Positions 24,308 through 32,534 of a stretch of DNA of 64,000 nt are shown one piece after another. Source of the stretch: a virus. Within the stretch, counting starts at the first letter, position 1; every line of letters starts with the position of its first letter. Below the pieces are notes generated by a model. The model saw nothing but the letters and a program-made list of their open reading frames with translations, made no database searches and was not told the origin of the DNA. A program made the position numbers and the translations under genes. The stretch spans positions 62,001-126,000 of IMG/VR virus record IMGVR_UViG_3300018465_000004; one strand, written 5' to 3'.

Positions 24308-24381
24308 CGCGGGGTGGCGCAGTTCGGTAGCGCAGCGGGCTCATAATCCGCAGGCCATGGGTTCAAATCCCATCCCCGCCT
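24308..24381 (+). tRNA. tRNA-Met (CAT)
   Basis: Full cloverleaf: acceptor CGCGGGG / CCCCGCC, U8, D arm GCGC-AGTTCGGTA-GCGC, anticodon stem GCGGG / TCCGC with loop CTCATAA (anticodon CAT), variable AGGCC, T arm ATGGG-TTCAAAT-CCCAT, discriminator T; CCA is not encoded. The 1:72 pair is C-C, a mismatch. Initiators also lack a 1:72 pair, but they need three G-C pairs at 29-31/39-41, and here pair 31:39 is G-U. Elongator Met is the likely identity. Confidence 0.85.
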
Positions 24382-24385
24382 CGAT

Positions 24386-25113: not shown

Positions 25114-25304
25114 GCGAATCAAAGGCGCGGATGCAGGCGGATCTTCGTGCCCTGCGCCGGGAAGCCGACCGTGCCCACGCCATCGCCGCGGACCTGTTGC
25201 AGCACATCGTGGACCTGCACGAGCACCTGCATCAGGTGCACGGTGAACGCCACCAGCTGGCCGTGCAGGTGCCTGAGTCGCTCTGGCGGCGGGTGAACGT
25301 GTGA
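25110..25304 (+). CDS. small helical protein (64 aa)
   Basis: ATG after GGGAAGGGAC, ATGA overlap with the permease-like gene. A single long His-rich helix (LQHIVDLHEHLHQVHGERHQ) suggests a coiled coil. Coupled by an ATGA-type overlap to the Rad50-like gene. Confidence 0.65.
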   Translation: MSESKARMQADLRALRREADRAHAIAADLLQHIVDLHEHLHQVHGERHQLAVQVPESLWRRVNV

Positions 25305-26236
25305 TCGAGCACGTCGCCATCCGCAGCTTCCAGAGCCTGCGCAGGGTCGACCTCGACCTCGGCCGCTTCACCGTCATCGTCGGCCAGTCCTCATCGGGCA
25401 AGTCCGCCCTGATGCGAGCCTTCCGCGCCGTCGCCTCCAACATCTCCGGAACCTCGGCAATCACCCGTGGCGCCGACGCCGCCGCCATCACCGTGCGCAC
25501 CGGCGAGGCCGCGGTGACCCTGGAGTACAGCCGCGGGGCCTGGCGCTACCGGCTGGTCGGACCCGACGGGGAAAAGGACTACACCAAGCTCAACCGGTCC
25601 GTCCCCGAGGCGGTCACCCAGACGCTGCGCATCGCCCCCGTCCCCACCACCGGCACCTCGATCAACTTCGCCGGCCAGTTCGACCGGCCGTACCTGCTCA
25701 CCGAGTCCGGCGCCACCGTCGCCCGCGAGCTGGGCGAGCTGACCAATGTGGACACCATCTACGCGGCGGTCCGGGAAGCCAACCGTGTGCGGGCAGCCGC
25801 CGCCGGCACCTTGAAGACCCGCCGCGCCGACCTCGAACGGCTGGTGACCGAGGCAGCCCGCTTCGCCGACCTCAAAGTCCGCCTCGCCGCATGCGACCGC
25901 GCCGAGCTGGCCGCCGCCCGCGCCGCCCACCTCAAAGACCAGATCCGCCGGTTGACGGCCGCCACGGATGCCCTGGAGATCGCGGAAGGTGTCCTGGCCC
26001 GAGCCGAACAGCTGCCGCCCGTCCCGTCCGAGACGGCCGCTCTAGCCGCCCACGGGCGGCTCACCACCCTCCATCAACTCCTGCGCGAATGCGCTTCCGC
26101 CGCCAAAGCCGAGGCGGAAGCCGCGCAGGCGAAGTACCGGACCTCAACCGCTACCGCGGTGCTGGAGCAGCAGCTGCACGCCCTGCTCGTCGAGGCCGGT
26201 ACCTGCCCCACCTGTCAACAACCCATACGTAACTAA
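25301..26236 (+). CDS. Rad50/SbcC N-terminal half (Walker A to zinc hook)
   Basis: 311 aa. MIEHVAIRSFQSLRRVDLDL is the usual SMC/Rad50 start, and VGQSSSGKSALM (residues 27-38) is the Walker A loop. A Q-loop region follows (INFAGQFDRPYLL, about 125-137). Residues 150-295 are a long coiled coil, and the protein ends with CPTCQQPIRN. CxxC at 302-305 is the Rad50 zinc hook. No Walker B or signature motif is present; both are supplied by the separate gene at 30899-31540. The Mre11 homologue lies 950 nt downstream. Expected role: the ATP-gated DNA-end clamp of a Mre11-Rad50 nuclease. Confidence 0.85.
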   Translation: MIEHVAIRSFQSLRRVDLDLGRFTVIVGQSSSGKSALMRAFRAVASNISGTSAITRGADAAAITVRTGEAAVTLEYSRGAWRYRLVGPDGEKDYTKLNRSVPEAVTQTLRIAPVPTTGTSINFAGQFDRPYLLTESGATVARELGELTNVDTIYAAVREANRVRAAAAGTLKTRRADLERLVTEAARFADLKVRLAACDRAELAAARAAHLKDQIRRLTAATDALEIAEGVLARAEQLPPVPSETAALAAHGRLTTLHQLLRECASAAKAEAEAAQAKYRTSTATAVLEQQLHALLVEAGTCPTCQQPIRN

Positions 26237-26254
26237 AAGCTGGAGATGCCAGTT

Positions 26255-26686
26255 ATGAGCGGTATGAGCCACACCATCATTGGTGCCGGGGGCGGCTTCA
26301 ACGCAGCTTCCTTCGCGCCGGTCAGCGTCAGCGACATCGTCCAGGGACGGTGCGGGCCGCACGGCTACGGCCAGCCCTGCCCCAGCAAGAGCCCGTCCAC
26401 CAGCCCCTCGCCGAGCCCGTCGAAGAGCCCGTCCGCCAGCGCTTCGCCGAGCCCGTCGACCAGCCCGTCAGCGTCGTCGAGCAGCTCGGCGCCGGGGACC
26501 CCGTCCACCTCGCCGCAGCCGTCCACCTCGACCAGCACCACCACACCGCCGCTGGAGCTGCCCCGCACCGACTCCCTGCCCGGGACCGGCGCGATGGTCG
26601 GCTTCGGACTGCTCCTCGTCGTCGCCGGATCCGGGCTCGTCATGGCGACCCGCCGGATCGGCCGGCACCGCCGCCAGCGCGCGTAA
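26255..26686 (+). CDS. Ser/Pro-rich protein with LPGTG sorting-like end (143 aa)
   Basis: ATG 26255 has GGAG nine nucleotides upstream. Residues 47-100 are a low-complexity Ser/Pro/Thr linker. The C-terminus has LPGTG (108-112), then a hydrophobic helix (AMVGFGLLLVVAGSGLVMAT) and a basic tail RRIGRHRRQRA, the three parts of a sortase sorting signal. The N-terminus lacks a convincing signal peptide, having only a weakly hydrophobic GAGGGFNAASFAPV. If exported, it would be attached to the host wall. Confidence 0.7.
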   Translation: MSGMSHTIIGAGGGFNAASFAPVSVSDIVQGRCGPHGYGQPCPSKSPSTSPSPSPSKSPSASASPSPSTSPSASSSSSAPGTPSTSPQPSTSTSTTTPPLELPRTDSLPGTGAMVGFGLLLVVAGSGLVMATRRIGRHRRQRA

Positions 26687-26708
26687 ACGACGGCCCGCGC
26701 CGTGTAGA

Positions 26709-26738
26709 AGTCCCCAGGAGGCACGCCTCCTGGGGACT
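26709..26738 (+). terminator. terminator hairpin after LPGTG gene
   Basis: 13-bp arms AGTCCCCAGGAGG / CCTCCTGGGGACT around CACG, followed by CTCTGC. It isolates the LPGTG gene from the deaminase gene that starts 17 nt later. Confidence 0.8.
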
Positions 26739-26755
26739 CTCTGCATGGAGGTGCG

Positions 26756-27196
26756 GTGCCGCGACCACATTGGACGGACTACTTTCTGGCGATCGCCCAC
26801 CAGGTCGCTGAGCGCACTGACTGCCGCCGGGCAAAAGTGGGTGCCGTCCTGGTCGACCAGCGTCACCGCATCGTCGGATCCGGCTACCCCGGCACCGTTC
26901 CTGGGCGACCCGGCTGCCTGGCCGGTGCCTGCCCCCGCGGCCTCAAGTCCGCCGCCGAGCAGCCCCCGCTCAGCGCTTACGACGACTGCATCTCGGTGCA
27001 CGCCGAGGCCAACGCCATCCTCAACTCCGACCGGGCGCTCTACACCGGCGGCATCATCTATGTCACCCGCGAACCCTGCCACTGGTGCTTCAAGCTCCTC
27101 CAGGCCGCCGGTCTGAACCTGGCCGTCTACGGCAGCCCCGGCGACTTCCGGTTCACCGACCTGGCCAAGTGGCAGGCGGTACAGGCTGATGTCTGA
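26756..27196 (+). CDS. dCMP deaminase family protein
   Basis: 146 aa from GTG, GGAGG four nucleotides upstream. Zinc deaminase motifs VHAEANAIL (His82, Glu84) and EPCHWCFKLL (Cys108, Cys111). Length and insert with CLAGACPRG (54-62) match phage and bacterial dCMP/ComE-type deaminases, which convert dCMP to dUMP. This feeds the ThyX encoded at 31704. Overlaps the Mre11-like gene by 8 nt. Confidence 0.85.
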   Translation: MPRPHWTDYFLAIAHQVAERTDCRRAKVGAVLVDQRHRIVGSGYPGTVPGRPGCLAGACPRGLKSAAEQPPLSAYDDCISVHAEANAILNSDRALYTGGIIYVTREPCHWCFKLLQAAGLNLAVYGSPGDFRFTDLAKWQAVQADV

Positions 27197-28148
27197 GTAC
27201 CTGCTGATGGGCGACATCCACCTCTCCGACCGGCCCCCGTCGAGCTGCACCGACAGCTACCAGGACGACATCTTCGACCTGTTGCGCCACGTCGGCACCA
27301 TCGCCGCCGATCGCAGGTCCGCGGGCGTCATCTGGGCCGGTGACGTGTTCCACCACAAGACCCCCGGGCGGACCAGCCACCGCACCGTCATCGACCTGAT
27401 CGCGCTGCTCTTCGACTACCCCTGCCCGACCTACGTCGTGCCCGGCAACCACGACATGCTGCACGACCGGCTCGACAGCATCGACAACACCCAACCCCTC
27501 GGCGTGGTCATCGCCTCCGGCGCCCTGCGCCTGCTCAACGGCTGGATGAACAGCGGCGGCGACCTGGTCTACGGCGTGCCCTGGCTGATGCGTTTCACTG
27601 ACGACGCGGTCGAGTCCGCTTTCGCCGACTGGCGCCACCTCAACCCCGAAGGTGCCGCCGCGCTGTGCGTCACCCACGCCCCGCTCTACCCGGTAGGTAG
27701 AGAACTCGCCTACGAGAACTACCCCGCCGGCAAGTGGGCGTGGGCGATGGGCGGACACGGCAGCGTCTACTACGGACACGTCCACGAGCCGCACGGCATC
27801 CACCAGGTCGGCGGAGTGACCTTCTGCAACGCCGGAGCCCTCTCCCGCGGTTCCCTGCACGAACACAACCTCACCCGCCCGGTCCAGATCGCCGCCTGGA
27901 GCGCCGACACCGGCACCTTCGCGCTGCTCGACCTTCCCCACAAGCCGGCCGAAGAGGTCTTCCGCCTCGTCGAGGCAAAGCAGGCCCGCACCGCCCAGGT
28001 CGAACTCGACCGGTTCCTCGACTCCGTCGGCCAGGCCCGGCTCGAAATCACCTCCATCGAGGCGGTCCTGGCCCACGTGCGCACCCTGCACCTCGGCGAG
28101 GAACTCGAACGCCTCATCGCCGCCCTGTTGGAAGAGGCCAGCGCGTGA
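27189..28148 (+). CDS. Mre11/SbcD-type nuclease
   Basis: 319 aa. Calcineurin-like phosphoesterase motifs in order: LMGDIHLSD (D9, H11), IWAGDVFHH, VVPGNHDML, CVTHAPLY and YYGHVHEPHG. These are the Mn-binding residues of Mre11/SbcD. The final 80 residues are helical (RTAQVELDRFLDSVGQARLE), as in the Rad50-binding capping end. It lies between the two Rad50 half-genes and is coupled to the HAD phosphatase gene. Confidence 0.9.
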   Translation: MSEYLLMGDIHLSDRPPSSCTDSYQDDIFDLLRHVGTIAADRRSAGVIWAGDVFHHKTPGRTSHRTVIDLIALLFDYPCPTYVVPGNHDMLHDRLDSIDNTQPLGVVIASGALRLLNGWMNSGGDLVYGVPWLMRFTDDAVESAFADWRHLNPEGAAALCVTHAPLYPVGRELAYENYPAGKWAWAMGGHGSVYYGHVHEPHGIHQVGGVTFCNAGALSRGSLHEHNLTRPVQIAAWSADTGTFALLDLPHKPAEEVFRLVEAKQARTAQVELDRFLDSVGQARLEITSIEAVLAHVRTLHLGEELERLIAALLEEASA

Positions 28149-28633
28149 ACCCGCTCTACCGCACCGTCGCCGGCACCCGGATGGAGGTCATCCTCACCGA
28201 CCTGGACTCCACGCTGGCCGACACGCGCCAACGCCGGCATCTGTGCCCCACCGTGGACGCGGCACGGACCTGGTCCGCCTACGCGATGGCCTGCTCCAAC
28301 GACGCCCCGATGCTCGGACCCATCGCCGCCCTGCGGATGTTCCACGCCGCCGGCTACGGCGTGCACATCGTCACCAACCGGCCCGAGTGCTCCCGCGCCC
28401 TGACCGAACGGTGGCTGCGGACCCACTGCGTGGCCTACGAAGTGCTGCGGATGCGCCCCGACGACAGCCCGTTCGACGGCGACATCAAACTCGCCTACCT
28501 CGACGAGATCCGCGCCACTGGCTACGCACCCCTGCTCTTCCTCGAAGACTGGGCCGAGACCGCAGCCGCCATCGAAGCCGCCGGAGTCCCCACACTCTGC
28601 CTGAACCCCCGCTACCAGCTGGCCCCGGTATGA
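28145..28633 (+). CDS. HAD-superfamily phosphatase, PNKP 3'-phosphatase-like
   Basis: 162 aa from GTG overlapping the mre11-like stop. Motifs: ILTDLDSTLADTRQRRHL (D19, D21), HIVTNRPE (motif II), and KLAYLDEI followed by APLLFLEDW (motifs III/IV). The DLDSTLADT...R pattern with the late D-W is like the phosphatase half of T4 polynucleotide kinase, so end-healing of nicked or cut DNA/RNA is plausible. There is no kinase domain. Confidence 0.75.
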   Translation: MNPLYRTVAGTRMEVILTDLDSTLADTRQRRHLCPTVDAARTWSAYAMACSNDAPMLGPIAALRMFHAAGYGVHIVTNRPECSRALTERWLRTHCVAYEVLRMRPDDSPFDGDIKLAYLDEIRATGYAPLLFLEDWAETAAAIEAAGVPTLCLNPRYQLAPV

Positions 28634-29451
28634 AACCCATCCGGATCTCCTGGAGCGCGCTACGCACCCACGACGAGTGCGGCATGAAAGCCCGCCTGAT
28701 CCGCGAAGGCAAACGCAGCCCGGTCAAGGATCTGCGCAACTACTACCACGGCATGGTCGTGGACTCCGTCATGCAGCAGTGGCTCGCCGACCCGCAGCGG
28801 CGCCCCGGGCAGATGACCACCATGGTCGACGCCGCCATCGTCGACGGCCTCACCGAGGCCCGTAGTTCCGGCGACGGCATGGTGCGCTGGCGCAACCCCG
28901 ACGACCGCGCCCAGTTGCGCCAGTTCTGCCTCGACCTCGTCGACCGGCTCGAACCACTGCTCGCCCGCCACGTCCTGCCCTACCACTTCCGCGCCCCGTA
29001 CCGCTTCGAAGTGCCCGTCGTCGTCGCCGGCAGCACCGTCCTGCTCGTCGGCGAGATGGACATCCTGGTCCACCACCAACCCGGCTACGTCGTACTCGAC
29101 CTCAAAGCCACCGCCGACGACCAGTACTGGCGGCGGGTCGCCGGCCAGCTCACCTTCTACGACCTGGCCGTGCTCGGCCTCTTCGGCGAACCCACCCGGG
29201 CCGTCGGACTCATCCAGCCCATGTGTCCCCAGCAGATGCTCGGCATCACCATCACCGACGAGGACCGCCGCCAGATGTGGGCCCGCATCCAACGCATGGT
29301 CGAAGAGATCCGCACCGACGCCATCACCTGCAAGTCCGGCACCGCCGGCTGTACCTGGTGCGAGGTCCGCCACGCCTGCCCCCGTTACGCACCCGAGGCC
29401 GACTCACTCGGCCTGGGTCTGCGCCGCGCCGCCGAGGAGGCCCGCCAGTGA
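28630..29451 (+). CDS. Cas4/RecB-like PD-(D/E)XK nuclease with Fe-S cysteines
   Basis: 273 aa, ATGA-coupled. Catalytic pattern LLVGEMDILV (about residues 138-147) and GYVVLDLKAT (about 156-165). Cysteines HDEC (C17) and CKSGTAGCTWC, with the following HACPRY at the end, give the one-plus-three arrangement of Cas4/AddB Fe-S nucleases. SWSALRTHDECGMKARL is the typical PD-(D/E)XK N-terminus. Expected activity: 5'-3' exonuclease at DNA ends, alongside Mre11-Rad50. No cas genes are present. Confidence 0.85.
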   Translation: MKPIRISWSALRTHDECGMKARLIREGKRSPVKDLRNYYHGMVVDSVMQQWLADPQRRPGQMTTMVDAAIVDGLTEARSSGDGMVRWRNPDDRAQLRQFCLDLVDRLEPLLARHVLPYHFRAPYRFEVPVVVAGSTVLLVGEMDILVHHQPGYVVLDLKATADDQYWRRVAGQLTFYDLAVLGLFGEPTRAVGLIQPMCPQQMLGITITDEDRRQMWARIQRMVEEIRTDAITCKSGTAGCTWCEVRHACPRYAPEADSLGLGLRRAAEEARQ

Positions 29452-29699
29452 CCGCCGACTTCGAAACCAGGGTCAACGCCCTCCGCGAGCGCATCGCCGC
29501 CGCGCAACGCGACCGCATCCGCGCCGAACATGCCCGCGACGCCGCGCAGGCCCAGGCGCAGCGTGCCCGGCAGGCACTGCACGACGAGTTCGGTATAGCC
29601 ACGCCGGAGCAGGCCCGCACCCTGCTGGCCGCACTCCAGGAACAGCTCGCCGATGAGCTGGCCATCCTCAACGCCGAGCTGGACAAGATCGGGGCATAG
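29448..29699 (+). CDS. coiled-coil protein (83 aa)
   Basis: GTGA overlap with the nuclease gene. A single long coiled coil (RVNALRERIAAAQRDRIRAE onward) with a helical end. Could belong with the Rad50 halves, which also carry coiled coils; this is inference from location. Confidence 0.65.
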   Translation: MTADFETRVNALRERIAAAQRDRIRAEHARDAAQAQAQRARQALHDEFGIATPEQARTLLAALQEQLADELAILNAELDKIGA

Positions 29700-29702
29700 C
29701 CG

Positions 29703-30902
29703 ATGGGCAACGTCGTCGACGGACGCGATTTCCTGGACACCCTGCTCACCGACGAACCCGCACCGGCCACCCGACACACCACCAGCCTCGGCCTGGCCTT
29801 CACGGTCAAAAGGTTCATCCTCGGCCTGCTGCTCGACCGCGCCGCCACCGTCGTGCCCACCCGCGATGTCATGGAAGTCCTCAACAACTTCCAGCTCGAC
29901 GCACGCCCCGGCCGGCTACGGGTCATCGCCAGCGACATGGAACAGTCCATGATCGCCACCACCGAGCTGGTCACCGTCACCGAACCCGGCGTCATCGTCT
30001 TCCCCGCAAAGAAACTGCTCGGCATCATCCGCGAAGCCGAAGACGGTGACGTCGCCTTCCGCGTCTCCGCCGGCACCGCCCATATCACCATCGGTCGCAC
30101 CACCTGGACCAACAGGCTCCAGGGCGGCGAGGACTACCCCGCCATGCCCGAAGTCACCGAAGTGGTCATGACCGCCGTCGACCGCACCGAGTTCGCCACC
30201 GCCCTCGATGCGGTCCGCTACGCCGCCTGCAAGGACGTCGCCCGCGCCAGCCTCATGATGATCGACATCCGGGACAGCAAGCTCACCGCCTGCGACGGTT
30301 CGCGGTTCCAGCAGGCCGCCATGTGCACCTTCCCGTTCGCCTTCCAGCTGCCGATCGCCGCTGCGGACCGGCTGCTCAAGCTGCTGGCCAAGAGCGACGT
30401 CACCGAGATCGGAATCGGGCAGAGCGACCACCACCTGATCTTCCGCCTCGGCGCCGACGTATTCGTCGTCAACAAGCTGATGGCCCAGTTCCCGGACATG
30501 GAAGCCTCCCTGCTGCGACCGGCCCTGGCCAACCGGCACCCGCTGACCGTCGACCGCCGCGAGCTGCTCGTCGCCCTCAAGCGCACCCGGATCAACGCCG
30601 ACCCCGAAACCTCGGCGATCGCACTGCGCCTGGCCGCCGGCACCGTCACCGTCGTCGCCCGCGACAAGTACGGCAACGACGCCACCGAGACCATCGACGC
30701 CGGCTGGACCGGCCCCGAACGCACCGTCGTGGTCAACCACCAGTTCCTCGCCGATCTGATCTCGGCCCACCACGGCCAGACCCTGACCCTCCAGCTCGGC
30801 GACGACACCAAGACCCGCAAAGCCCCCGTCATGCTGCGCGCCGACACCGGCGCCGTCGGAGTCGTCCAGCAGATGCACAGCGACTGGGTAGGCGCCGGAT
30901 GA
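29703..30902 (+). CDS. DNA polymerase III sliding-clamp (beta) homologue
   Basis: 399 aa. Residues 35-130 (LLLDRAATVVPTRDVMEVLN, then PGRLRVIASDMEQSMIATTE) and 160-250 (DRTEFATALDAVRYAACKDV; LTACDGSRFQQAAM) follow the DnaN domain pattern, three domains in total. The length is close to the usual 370-390. A phage clamp would tether polymerase or repair enzymes to DNA. A DnaX-like loader subunit is encoded at 36816. Its 3' end overlaps the Rad50 C-half gene. Confidence 0.8.
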   Translation: MGNVVDGRDFLDTLLTDEPAPATRHTTSLGLAFTVKRFILGLLLDRAATVVPTRDVMEVLNNFQLDARPGRLRVIASDMEQSMIATTELVTVTEPGVIVFPAKKLLGIIREAEDGDVAFRVSAGTAHITIGRTTWTNRLQGGEDYPAMPEVTEVVMTAVDRTEFATALDAVRYAACKDVARASLMMIDIRDSKLTACDGSRFQQAAMCTFPFAFQLPIAAADRLLKLLAKSDVTEIGIGQSDHHLIFRLGADVFVVNKLMAQFPDMEASLLRPALANRHPLTVDRRELLVALKRTRINADPETSAIALRLAAGTVTVVARDKYGNDATETIDAGWTGPERTVVVNHQFLADLISAHHGQTLTLQLGDDTKTRKAPVMLRADTGAVGVVQQMHSDWVGAG

Positions 30903-31540
30903 ACCTGACCAGCTGCCAGGATCGGCTGCGGCGGGCGCGCCGCGCCCTGGACCGCCAGGTCGGCGAGGCAAGCGCCCTGGCCCGCGCCGGTCAGCAACTG
31001 CAAACCGACATCGCCGACCTCACCCGCCAGGTCGACGACCACACCCGCGCCGCCGCCGTCCTGACCTCCATCGGCGAACAACGCCAGGCAGCCGCCCAGG
31101 CCACCATCGAAACCCTGGTCACCAAGGGCTTGCAGAGCATCTTCGGCGACGACCTGTCCTTCCACCTGGTACCTGTCGTGCGGGGGAACCGACCCGAAGT
31201 GGACTTCGTGGTCCGCTCCACCCTCGACGGAGCTGCGGTCGACACCCCCGTCATGGACGCCCGCGGCGGCGGCCTGGCCGCCACCGTCGGCTTCCTCCTG
31301 CGCCTGGTCGTGCTGCTGCTCTCACCGCACCGCCAGGACACGGTCCTGTTCCTGGACGAGACCTTCGCCCACGTCAGCGCCGAATACGAGCCGCGCCTGG
31401 CCGAGTTCCTGCGTGAGCTGGTCGACAAGACCGGCGTGCAGGTCATCATGGTCACCCACTCCGACGCCTATGCCGAACTCGCCGACACCCGCTACCGGTT
31501 CCAGCTCGTCGACGGCATCACTCGGGTCGAGGCGGTATGA
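30899..31540 (+). CDS. Rad50/SbcC C-terminal half
   Basis: 213 aa, ATGA overlap with the clamp gene. Residues 1-75 are a coiled coil. DARGGGLAATVGFLLR (120-135) is the ABC signature region, DTVLFLDETFAHVS (147-160) is Walker B plus D-loop, and MVTHSD (184-189) is the H-loop. There is no Walker A, so it must pair with the product of 25301-26236 to make a complete ATPase. Both parts together (about 524 aa) would be a short-armed Rad50. Confidence 0.85.
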   Translation: MNLTSCQDRLRRARRALDRQVGEASALARAGQQLQTDIADLTRQVDDHTRAAAVLTSIGEQRQAAAQATIETLVTKGLQSIFGDDLSFHLVPVVRGNRPEVDFVVRSTLDGAAVDTPVMDARGGGLAATVGFLLRLVVLLLSPHRQDTVLFLDETFAHVSAEYEPRLAEFLRELVDKTGVQVIMVTHSDAYAELADTRYRFQLVDGITRVEAV

Positions 31541-31695
31541 CCCCGCAGGAGATCCCCCAGCCGGTGGTCGACCTGCTCGACGAACGCGCCGGGCGCCGGC
31601 ACAGCCGGGAGGGATCCGTGCTGCGCACCCTCGCCGAGATCCTCACCCTCTACGACCGGCTCAGCGCCGAGGAAAACCCGCCACGCCGGCGGTAG
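31537..31695 (+). CDS. small hypothetical protein (52 aa)
   Basis: ATGA overlap with the Rad50 C-half gene. MTPQEIPQPVVDLLDERAGR onward is helical and charged, ending ENPPRRR. Translational coupling on the 5' side supports it. Unknown. Confidence 0.6.
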   Translation: MTPQEIPQPVVDLLDERAGRRHSREGSVLRTLAEILTLYDRLSAEENPPRRR

Positions 31696-31703
31696 GGGAA
31701 GGT

Positions 31704-32534
31704 GTGGACAGCGACTTCCAGCCAACGGCACGGGTCATCGCCGACTCGATCTCACCTGCCGGGGTCCGGCTGACCACCATCGAGGTGACACTCCACCGGT
31801 TCGTGCTGGCCGAGCTGAACACCCACCGCGCCTTCAGCCGCAACTCGGCGTCCTCCCGGGCCATCCCGGTCTCCCGCATCCTCAACCGCGTCGCCGACCG
31901 GCCAGCGATCCCAGTGCGCTTCCCCGCCGAACAGCGCGGCATGCAGGGCGGCACCGACATCGACGACCCGGTCAAGGCCCGCGAGATCTGGCTCGCCGCC
32001 CGCGATGCGGCAGTGGTCTACGCCGAACAGCTCATCTGCCTCGGCGTGCACAAGAGCGTGGTCAACCGGCTCCTCGAACCGTTCCTGCCGCACACCGTCA
32101 TCATCTCGGCCACCGACTGGGACGGATTCTGGCGGCAGCGCTGCTCCGCGCTCGCGCAGGACGAGATCCTCGTCGCCGCCGAGGCGATGCAAGCTGCCCG
32201 CCAGGCGTCCACCCCCAGGCCCGTTCCGTACGGCGGGTGGCACCTTCCCTACCTGCAACCGGAGGATCAGCACGTCTCCAGGTGGGTACATCAGCGCCTG
32301 AGCGCCGCCCGCTGCGCCCGGGTCTCCTACCTCACCCACGACGGACGGCGCGACACCCAAGCCGACCTCGACCTGTACACCAGGCTCGTCGAGGCCGACC
32401 CGCCGCACGCCTCCCCGCTGGAACACCCCGCCACCCCGGCCCGCCCCGGCGCCGCCGTGCCCGGCAATTTCCGCGGCTGGCGTCAACTGCGCCACCTCGT
32501 TCTCAGCCGCGACACCGAGGCAAGCCATGGGTGA
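31704..32534 (+). CDS. thyX: flavin-dependent thymidylate synthase ThyX
   Basis: 276 aa from GTG with GGGGAAGG just upstream. LNTHRAFSRNSASSRAIP (about residues 39-56) is the ThyX motif (usual form RHRxxSxNExSxRY), with T in place of the first Arg. SPLEH with RGWRQLRHLVLSRDTEA at the end matches the FAD/dUMP-binding C-terminus. It makes dTMP from dUMP using FAD and methylene-tetrahydrofolate. Pathway partner of the dCMP deaminase. Confidence 0.9.
   Translation: MDSDFQPTARVIADSISPAGVRLTTIEVTLHRFVLAELNTHRAFSRNSASSRAIPVSRILNRVADRPAIPVRFPAEQRGMQGGTDIDDPVKAREIWLAARDAAVVYAEQLICLGVHKSVVNRLLEPFLPHTVIISATDWDGFWRQRCSALAQDEILVAAEAMQAARQASTPRPVPYGGWHLPYLQPEDQHVSRWVHQRLSAARCARVSYLTHDGRRDTQADLDLYTRLVEADPPHASPLEHPATPARPGAAVPGNFRGWRQLRHLVLSRDTEASHG

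Follow-up and report, generated by a model that had tools for sequence, protein, structure and literature searches.

A predicted Rad50/SbcC ATPase divided at the zinc hook between two genes, in phages and in Bacillota chromosomes

Rad50 is usually one long chain with a zinc hook at the turn of its antiparallel coil. The window analyzed here, a stretch of 64,000 nucleotides (bases 62001–126000 of the 137.6-kb viral record IMGVR_UViG_3300018465_000004), contains one gene, which we call A, that resembles the first half of such a protein and another further downstream, B, that resembles the second half. Portal, terminase-like and major head genes are present in the window, and among isolates Microbacterium phage Magritte is the closest relative found. 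The locus raises the question of whether the two products are halves of a single Rad50 and, if so, what kind of Mre11–Rad50 complex they would form. We put the probability that A and B are halves of one Rad50/SbcC ABC ATPase in a DNA-end machine at roughly 0.88, with a predicted joint head and a presumed activity.

Two genes with complementary Rad50 motifs

Gene A has a GTG start and encodes 311 residues with a Walker A motif (GQSSSGKS), a Q-loop (GQFDRPYLL), a helical arm and the C-terminal sequence CPTCQQPIRN, in which six residues separate the second cysteine from the end. It matches phrog_16465 (1.6e-26), and its family profile finds a Rad50 head as best match in the Protein Data Bank (PDB; 5f3w, 1.1e-11), the last 60–75 positions of the profile matching two Rad50 hook structures, 6zff and 1l8d. 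A CxxC lies 4–21 residues from the stop in 88 of 90 non-redundant viral A proteins and 7–32 residues from it in all 71 intact chromosomal A proteins. The terminal CxxC of A is a predicted zinc hook, and the Walker A motif and C-terminal hook that a sequence-only reading of this DNA had assigned to the gene are both present.

The ATG of B overlaps the stop codon of the preceding sliding-clamp gene (ATGA). This start, at 30899, is the true one; a longer open reading frame (ORF) from 30323 is an in-frame upstream extension. The protein consists of about 70 helical residues followed by a signature-like ARGGG, a Walker B motif (LFLDE) and an H-loop (VTH). It matches phrog_15167 over its full length (1.4e-34), and its family profile matches the C-lobe of Pyrococcus Rad50 (3qkr_B, 1.7e-14). 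Profile searches with each half thus assign A to the N-half of Rad50 plus hook and B to the C-half. Family alignments show little or no variation at the Walker A Gly and Lys, the Q-loop Gln, the Walker B Asp-Glu and the H-loop His. Because these catalytic residues sit on different chains, neither half has a complete ATP site. The sequence-only reading had stated that an intact SbcC elsewhere would refute the split; no second Rad50-type N-lobe was found in the 137.6-kb record, which contains no intact SbcC.

The signature of B is not canonical. The GG of LSGGE is retained, while the Ser is replaced by Arg in 73 of 76 chromosomal B proteins and by Phe or Arg in 64 of 82 aligned phage B proteins; nearly all B proteins have Ser in place of the D-loop Asp. 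The classic S793R mutation of Pyrococcus Rad50, which puts Arg in place of Ser at this position, prevents ATP-driven dimerisation. The description of B as coil, signature, Walker B and H-loop holds, with ARGGG as a signature-like motif. Judged from these replacements, the altered signature is the main ground to expect that the complex may differ from Rad50 in function as well as in architecture.

Recurrence in phages and Bacillota

A search of a phage collection (50,697 records) gave matches to both A and B in five phages. Separate A and B genes are carried by Magritte, Bacillus phage vB_BboS-125, Tunturiibacter phage Tunturi_5 and an uncultured 485-kb phage, and Microcystis phage Mvi-JY20 has matches to A and to B. 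Scans of viral contigs added many further cases, so that the combined set holds A in 127 stretches and B in 106, never sharing one ORF. Among 26 records searched whole, both halves are present in 21; the five without one of them may be incomplete records. Looking for the same split in other phages, as had been proposed, yielded 58 non-redundant loci with separate A and B in one stretch. Mre11 is encoded in all 58, a small protein that we call x in 50, a PD-(D/E)XK nuclease in 39 and a sliding clamp in 36, and the exact six-gene order A–Mre11–PD-(D/E)XK–x–clamp–B is kept in 35. Split Rad50 recurs in many unrelated phages. Comparing the distance matrices for A, B and Mre11 gives correlations of 0.87–0.88 against a permutation maximum of 0.11; shared descent contributes to this agreement.

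About 90 viral proteins (non-redundant) and 71 chromosomal ones show the same break with motifs intact, and genes for clamp, nuclease, x and Mre11 intervene between the halves. An artefact, in which a frameshift, decay or an assembly error had interrupted a one-piece sbcC, is hence vanishingly improbable, even though a few Bacillota (L157, L165 and L200) have A, x and B in a common frame with only stops between them. Chance, sequencing error and gene decay were ruled out by the recurrence of the break. The split is real and old. As one expected domain is made by two genes, the halves might still be rejoined into one chain through split inteins, RNA trans-splicing or recoding. Against this, A stops just past the hook, B has its own ATG, and the intervening genes occupy differing frames; Pfam detected no intein domain in A or B and Rfam no intron. 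We regard rejoining as highly improbable.

Scanning bacterial genomes with B revealed 80 loci in Bacillota. Nearly all complete loci have mre11-A-x-B, mostly flanked by recA and rny, in the chromosomal order recA-mre11-A-x-B-rny, and the chromosomal loci form one group in a concatenated A+B+Mre11 tree (support 0.94, no outgroup). Split B was found in 49 of 300 Bacillota genomes drawn, one-piece SbcC in 118 and both in one, compared with 19 expected (Fisher p 1e-10, ignoring phylogeny); some SbcC were possibly missed, as only a small number of candidates in each genome were scored for it. One-piece SbcC is also absent from 12 of 14 singly checked genomes with the chromosomal operon. The Bacillota version looks like a housekeeping operon standing in for SbcC.

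One Bacillota genome without SbcC has a single 702-residue ORF (L232; G084 contig 6, minus strand) comprising Mre11, the N-lobe of A and the C-lobe of B, without arm or hook. It is a natural fusion linking Mre11, A and B. Together with the universal linkage to Mre11 and the matched evolutionary distances, this fusion supports the earlier suggestion of one DNA-end-processing machine.

A complex directed against competing DNA, akin to Lamassu or Wadjet, rather than one for repair or replication, would accord with the weak similarity of A to LmuB and with the use of Rad50-like modules in defence. We consider it unlikely, given the Mre11 partner, the clamp and Fe-S type nuclease adjoining replication genes, and a Bacillota form that lies beside recA and replaces SbcC. 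No PADLOC system model fits the gene set; Lamassu and Wadjet models give partial weak matches only, and their system-specific partner set was not found here.

The split, the family membership, the linkage to Mre11 and x, the conserved catalytic residues and the near-exclusion with SbcC can be read directly from the sequences. Taken as a whole, these genes probably define a new Mre11–Rad50 class, with a three-protein Rad50 (A, x and B) and an odd signature, that occurs in phages and, at recA-rny, as the housekeeping SbcCD of about one-sixth of Bacillota. The constant third piece x, the Bacillota housekeeping version and the non-canonical signature had been missed by the sequence-only reading.

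Predicted joint head and arm

AlphaFold models were made of read-through chains whose parts share one frame, A-B from locus L061 and A-x-B from L157. The joint-model alignments A10 and A13 were clean; A7, A8 and A12, with misplaced arm or x rows, were dropped. Mean predicted local distance difference test scores (pLDDT) were 72 (L061) and 80 (L157), with the lobes of L157 mostly at 85–96. Both models have Rad50 7zr1 as best PDB match (3.4e-15 and 1.5e-20), and their similarity to single-chain heads of Rad50 and SMC proteins extends over A and B alike. Compared with Pyrococcus Rad50 heads, the L157 model reached a target-normalised template modelling (TM) score of 0.65–0.69, which supports a joint A-B head because such a score on a two-lobe head requires both lobes to be placed. 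Modelled together, the halves of these relatives are predicted to form a Rad50-like head, and the other refuting outcome named by the sequence-only reading, failure of the halves to form a joint ATPase site, did not appear.

These models also bear on whether A and B are independent P-loop proteins (OLD/AAA_15-like or another ABC-type ATPase), chance neighbours without a shared head. The Pfam matches of each half alone lie below the AAA_23 and SMC_N cut-offs, and the halves are about 93 kb apart in Magritte and about 108 kb apart in Tunturi_5, as might be seen for unrelated genes. However, the complementary motif content of the halves, the invariant catalytic residues, the Mre11-A-B fusion, the kept gene order and the resemblance of the joint models to single-chain Rad50 heads all speak for a shared head, and independence appears very unlikely.

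Several points weigh against A and B as a Rad50 in two pieces. The models are of the relatives L061 and L157 rather than of the window pair, contain read-through joins and rest on three truly paired rows, and the arms make their overall root-mean-square deviation large. Since the arm varies while B and x are constant, a simple antiparallel coil over the full length cannot be the general rule. With the signature Ser and the D-loop Asp replaced, ATP-driven head engagement may differ. The CxxC is lacking from the phage A proteins of Magritte (L002, 6001–7053) and a relative (L092, 9989–11074). These two actinophage-type proteins have a different C-terminal tail and are possible hook-less forms.

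The L157 model shows the A arm as six helices of about 39–63 residues, x as a two-helix hairpin and B with one 87-residue helix. Whereas the A arm spans 147–344 residues across loci, the B helix stays at about 70 residues and x at about 82, with no correlation to arm length. Arm lengths cluster at a spacing of roughly 35–45 residues, which suggests a modular helical repeat. In the window phage the 148-residue arm is almost as long as B and x combined (70 + 83), and the lengths would thus permit an unbroken antiparallel coil with A on one side and x and B on the other; the surplus arm of long-armed lineages must self-fold or pair with another A.

A two-piece Rad50 of this kind could work as follows. 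A would contribute the N-lobe with Walker A and Q-loop, the outgoing arm and a zinc hook at its free C-terminus, and B the returning helix and the C-lobe with signature, Walker B and H-loop. The two are predicted to co-fold into one head, which would bind the neighbouring Mre11 nuclease, with x presumably packed onto the arm as a small additional subunit. Two A hooks would share one zinc and thereby tether two heads. A hook at a free C-terminus might also permit the unusual dimer or tetramer geometry suggested by the sequence-only reading. With the PD-(D/E)XK nuclease and the clamp as likely helpers, the complex may carry out ATP-gated processing of DNA ends for phage recombination and replication.

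Neighbouring genes and related systems

Between A and B lie, in order, genes for an LPGTG protein, a dCMP deaminase, an Mre11-like protein and a polynucleotide-kinase (PNKP)-type HAD phosphatase, then the PD-(D/E)XK nuclease, x and a three-domain beta clamp (Table 1). The Mre11, HAD, Cas4-like nuclease and clamp genes placed there by the sequence-only reading are all found; x had been overlooked. Genes from 26756 to 31695 have 4–8 base overlaps or 3-base spacing, and the coupled operon that had been described holds for them and not for A, which is set off by the LPGTG gene and a 69-base gap. The LPGTG motif is followed by a hydrophobic stretch and a basic tail, resembling a sortase-type cell-wall anchoring signal.

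Table 1. Coordinates of genes in and near the split Rad50 locus of the window
Feature	Position	Strand	Evidence or remark
tRNA-Met gene	24308–24382		
A: Rad50/SbcC N-half	25301–26236	+	sequence, phrog_16465, family profile
Ser/Pro-rich small protein, LPGTG end	26246–26686		between A and dCMP deaminase
Mre11/SbcD-like phosphoesterase, 319 aa	27189–28148	+	Pfam, TIGR00619
HAD phosphatase, PNKP type	28145–28633	+	phrog_415 polynucleotide kinase 2.4e-31
PD-(D/E)XK nuclease	28630–29451	+	PF12705 3.8e-14; Cas4 models up to 1e-5
x: 83-aa helical-hairpin protein	29448–29699	+	own homologue family (A6)
Beta sliding clamp	29703–30902	+	DNA_pol3_beta 3.5e-14; phrog_947 4.1e-38
B: Rad50/SbcC C-half, 213 aa	30899–31540	+	phrog_15167, Rad50 C-lobe profile
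ThyX-like thymidylate synthase	31704–32534		immediately downstream of operon; PF02511
Radical SAM protein, 989 aa	32616–35585		PF19864, PF04055

The Mre11-like protein contains the motifs GDIHL, GDVFH, GNHD, VTH and GHVH and scores 5.8e-12 with Pfam Metallophos and 4.2e-10 with TIGR00619 (sbcd). The nuclease has a Cas4/AddB-like cysteine pattern (C-x2-C-x5-C), and the PNKP-type HAD is an optional neighbour (6 of 149 loci). x is a small, unannotated coiled coil that accompanies split Rad50; in the PDB its profile matches nothing but generic coiled coils, and we propose it as an arm subunit. Conserved gene order is the basis for a putative tie of the complex to clamp and replication. Elsewhere in the window, the radical SAM protein is unusual for a phage, and the tRNA-Met gene is the sole tRNA found.

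Like SbcCD/Mre11–Rad50 (E. coli SbcC, P. furiosus Rad50, T4 gp46/gp47), the system pairs an Mre11-type nuclease with an ABC ATPase carrying Walker A, Q-loop, Walker B, H-loop and a CxxC hook, the Mre11/SbcD partner being indicated by gene linkage both in every phage locus and in the recA-rny operon. It differs in that Rad50 is divided at the hook into two chains and accompanied by a third, small protein; it also has a signature [R/F]GGG for LSGGE, a D-loop Ser for Asp and, in most lineages, a return helix much shorter than the arm. With separate chains and unequal coils, it is therefore a variant that would work like Rad50, not an ordinary SbcC. OLD/GajA proteins carry a Toprim nuclease on the same chain, whereas Pfam detects such a domain in neither A nor B.

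Existing phage families already cover A (PHROG 16465, "exonuclease") and B (PHROG 15167, "ATPase"), labelled as if unrelated and not presented as halves of one Rad50. Rearranged Mre11/Rad50 chains were described by Yoshida in 2011 (PMC3175470) for Mimivirus and others, two of them without one SbcC P-loop segment; these are fusions, however, and no hook split is described. The two Mre11 fusions with one P-loop segment gone, from Bacillus phage 0305phi8-36 and Anaerostipes, may be further half-Rad50s. A jumbo-phage survey (PMC7824862) reports SbcC as nearly universal, mentions no split of it in its passages on SbcC, and describes a split minimal DNA polymerase III whose halves are likewise thought to reassemble, although that protein is a polymerase. 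No description of a split Rad50/SbcC was found in the open-access literature, and priority is uncertain, as most subscription papers and preprints lay outside the search.

With its hook at a free end, its short return helix and a putative arm protein encoded separately, this system is a natural experiment on the purpose of the Rad50 coil and hook, and bears on whether a continuous coil is needed for signalling between hook and ATPase. The system also gives functions to three families that are poorly labelled at present, two from phages and one of a small protein, and offers an answer to the question of which Mre11–Rad50 many SbcC-less Bacillota use.

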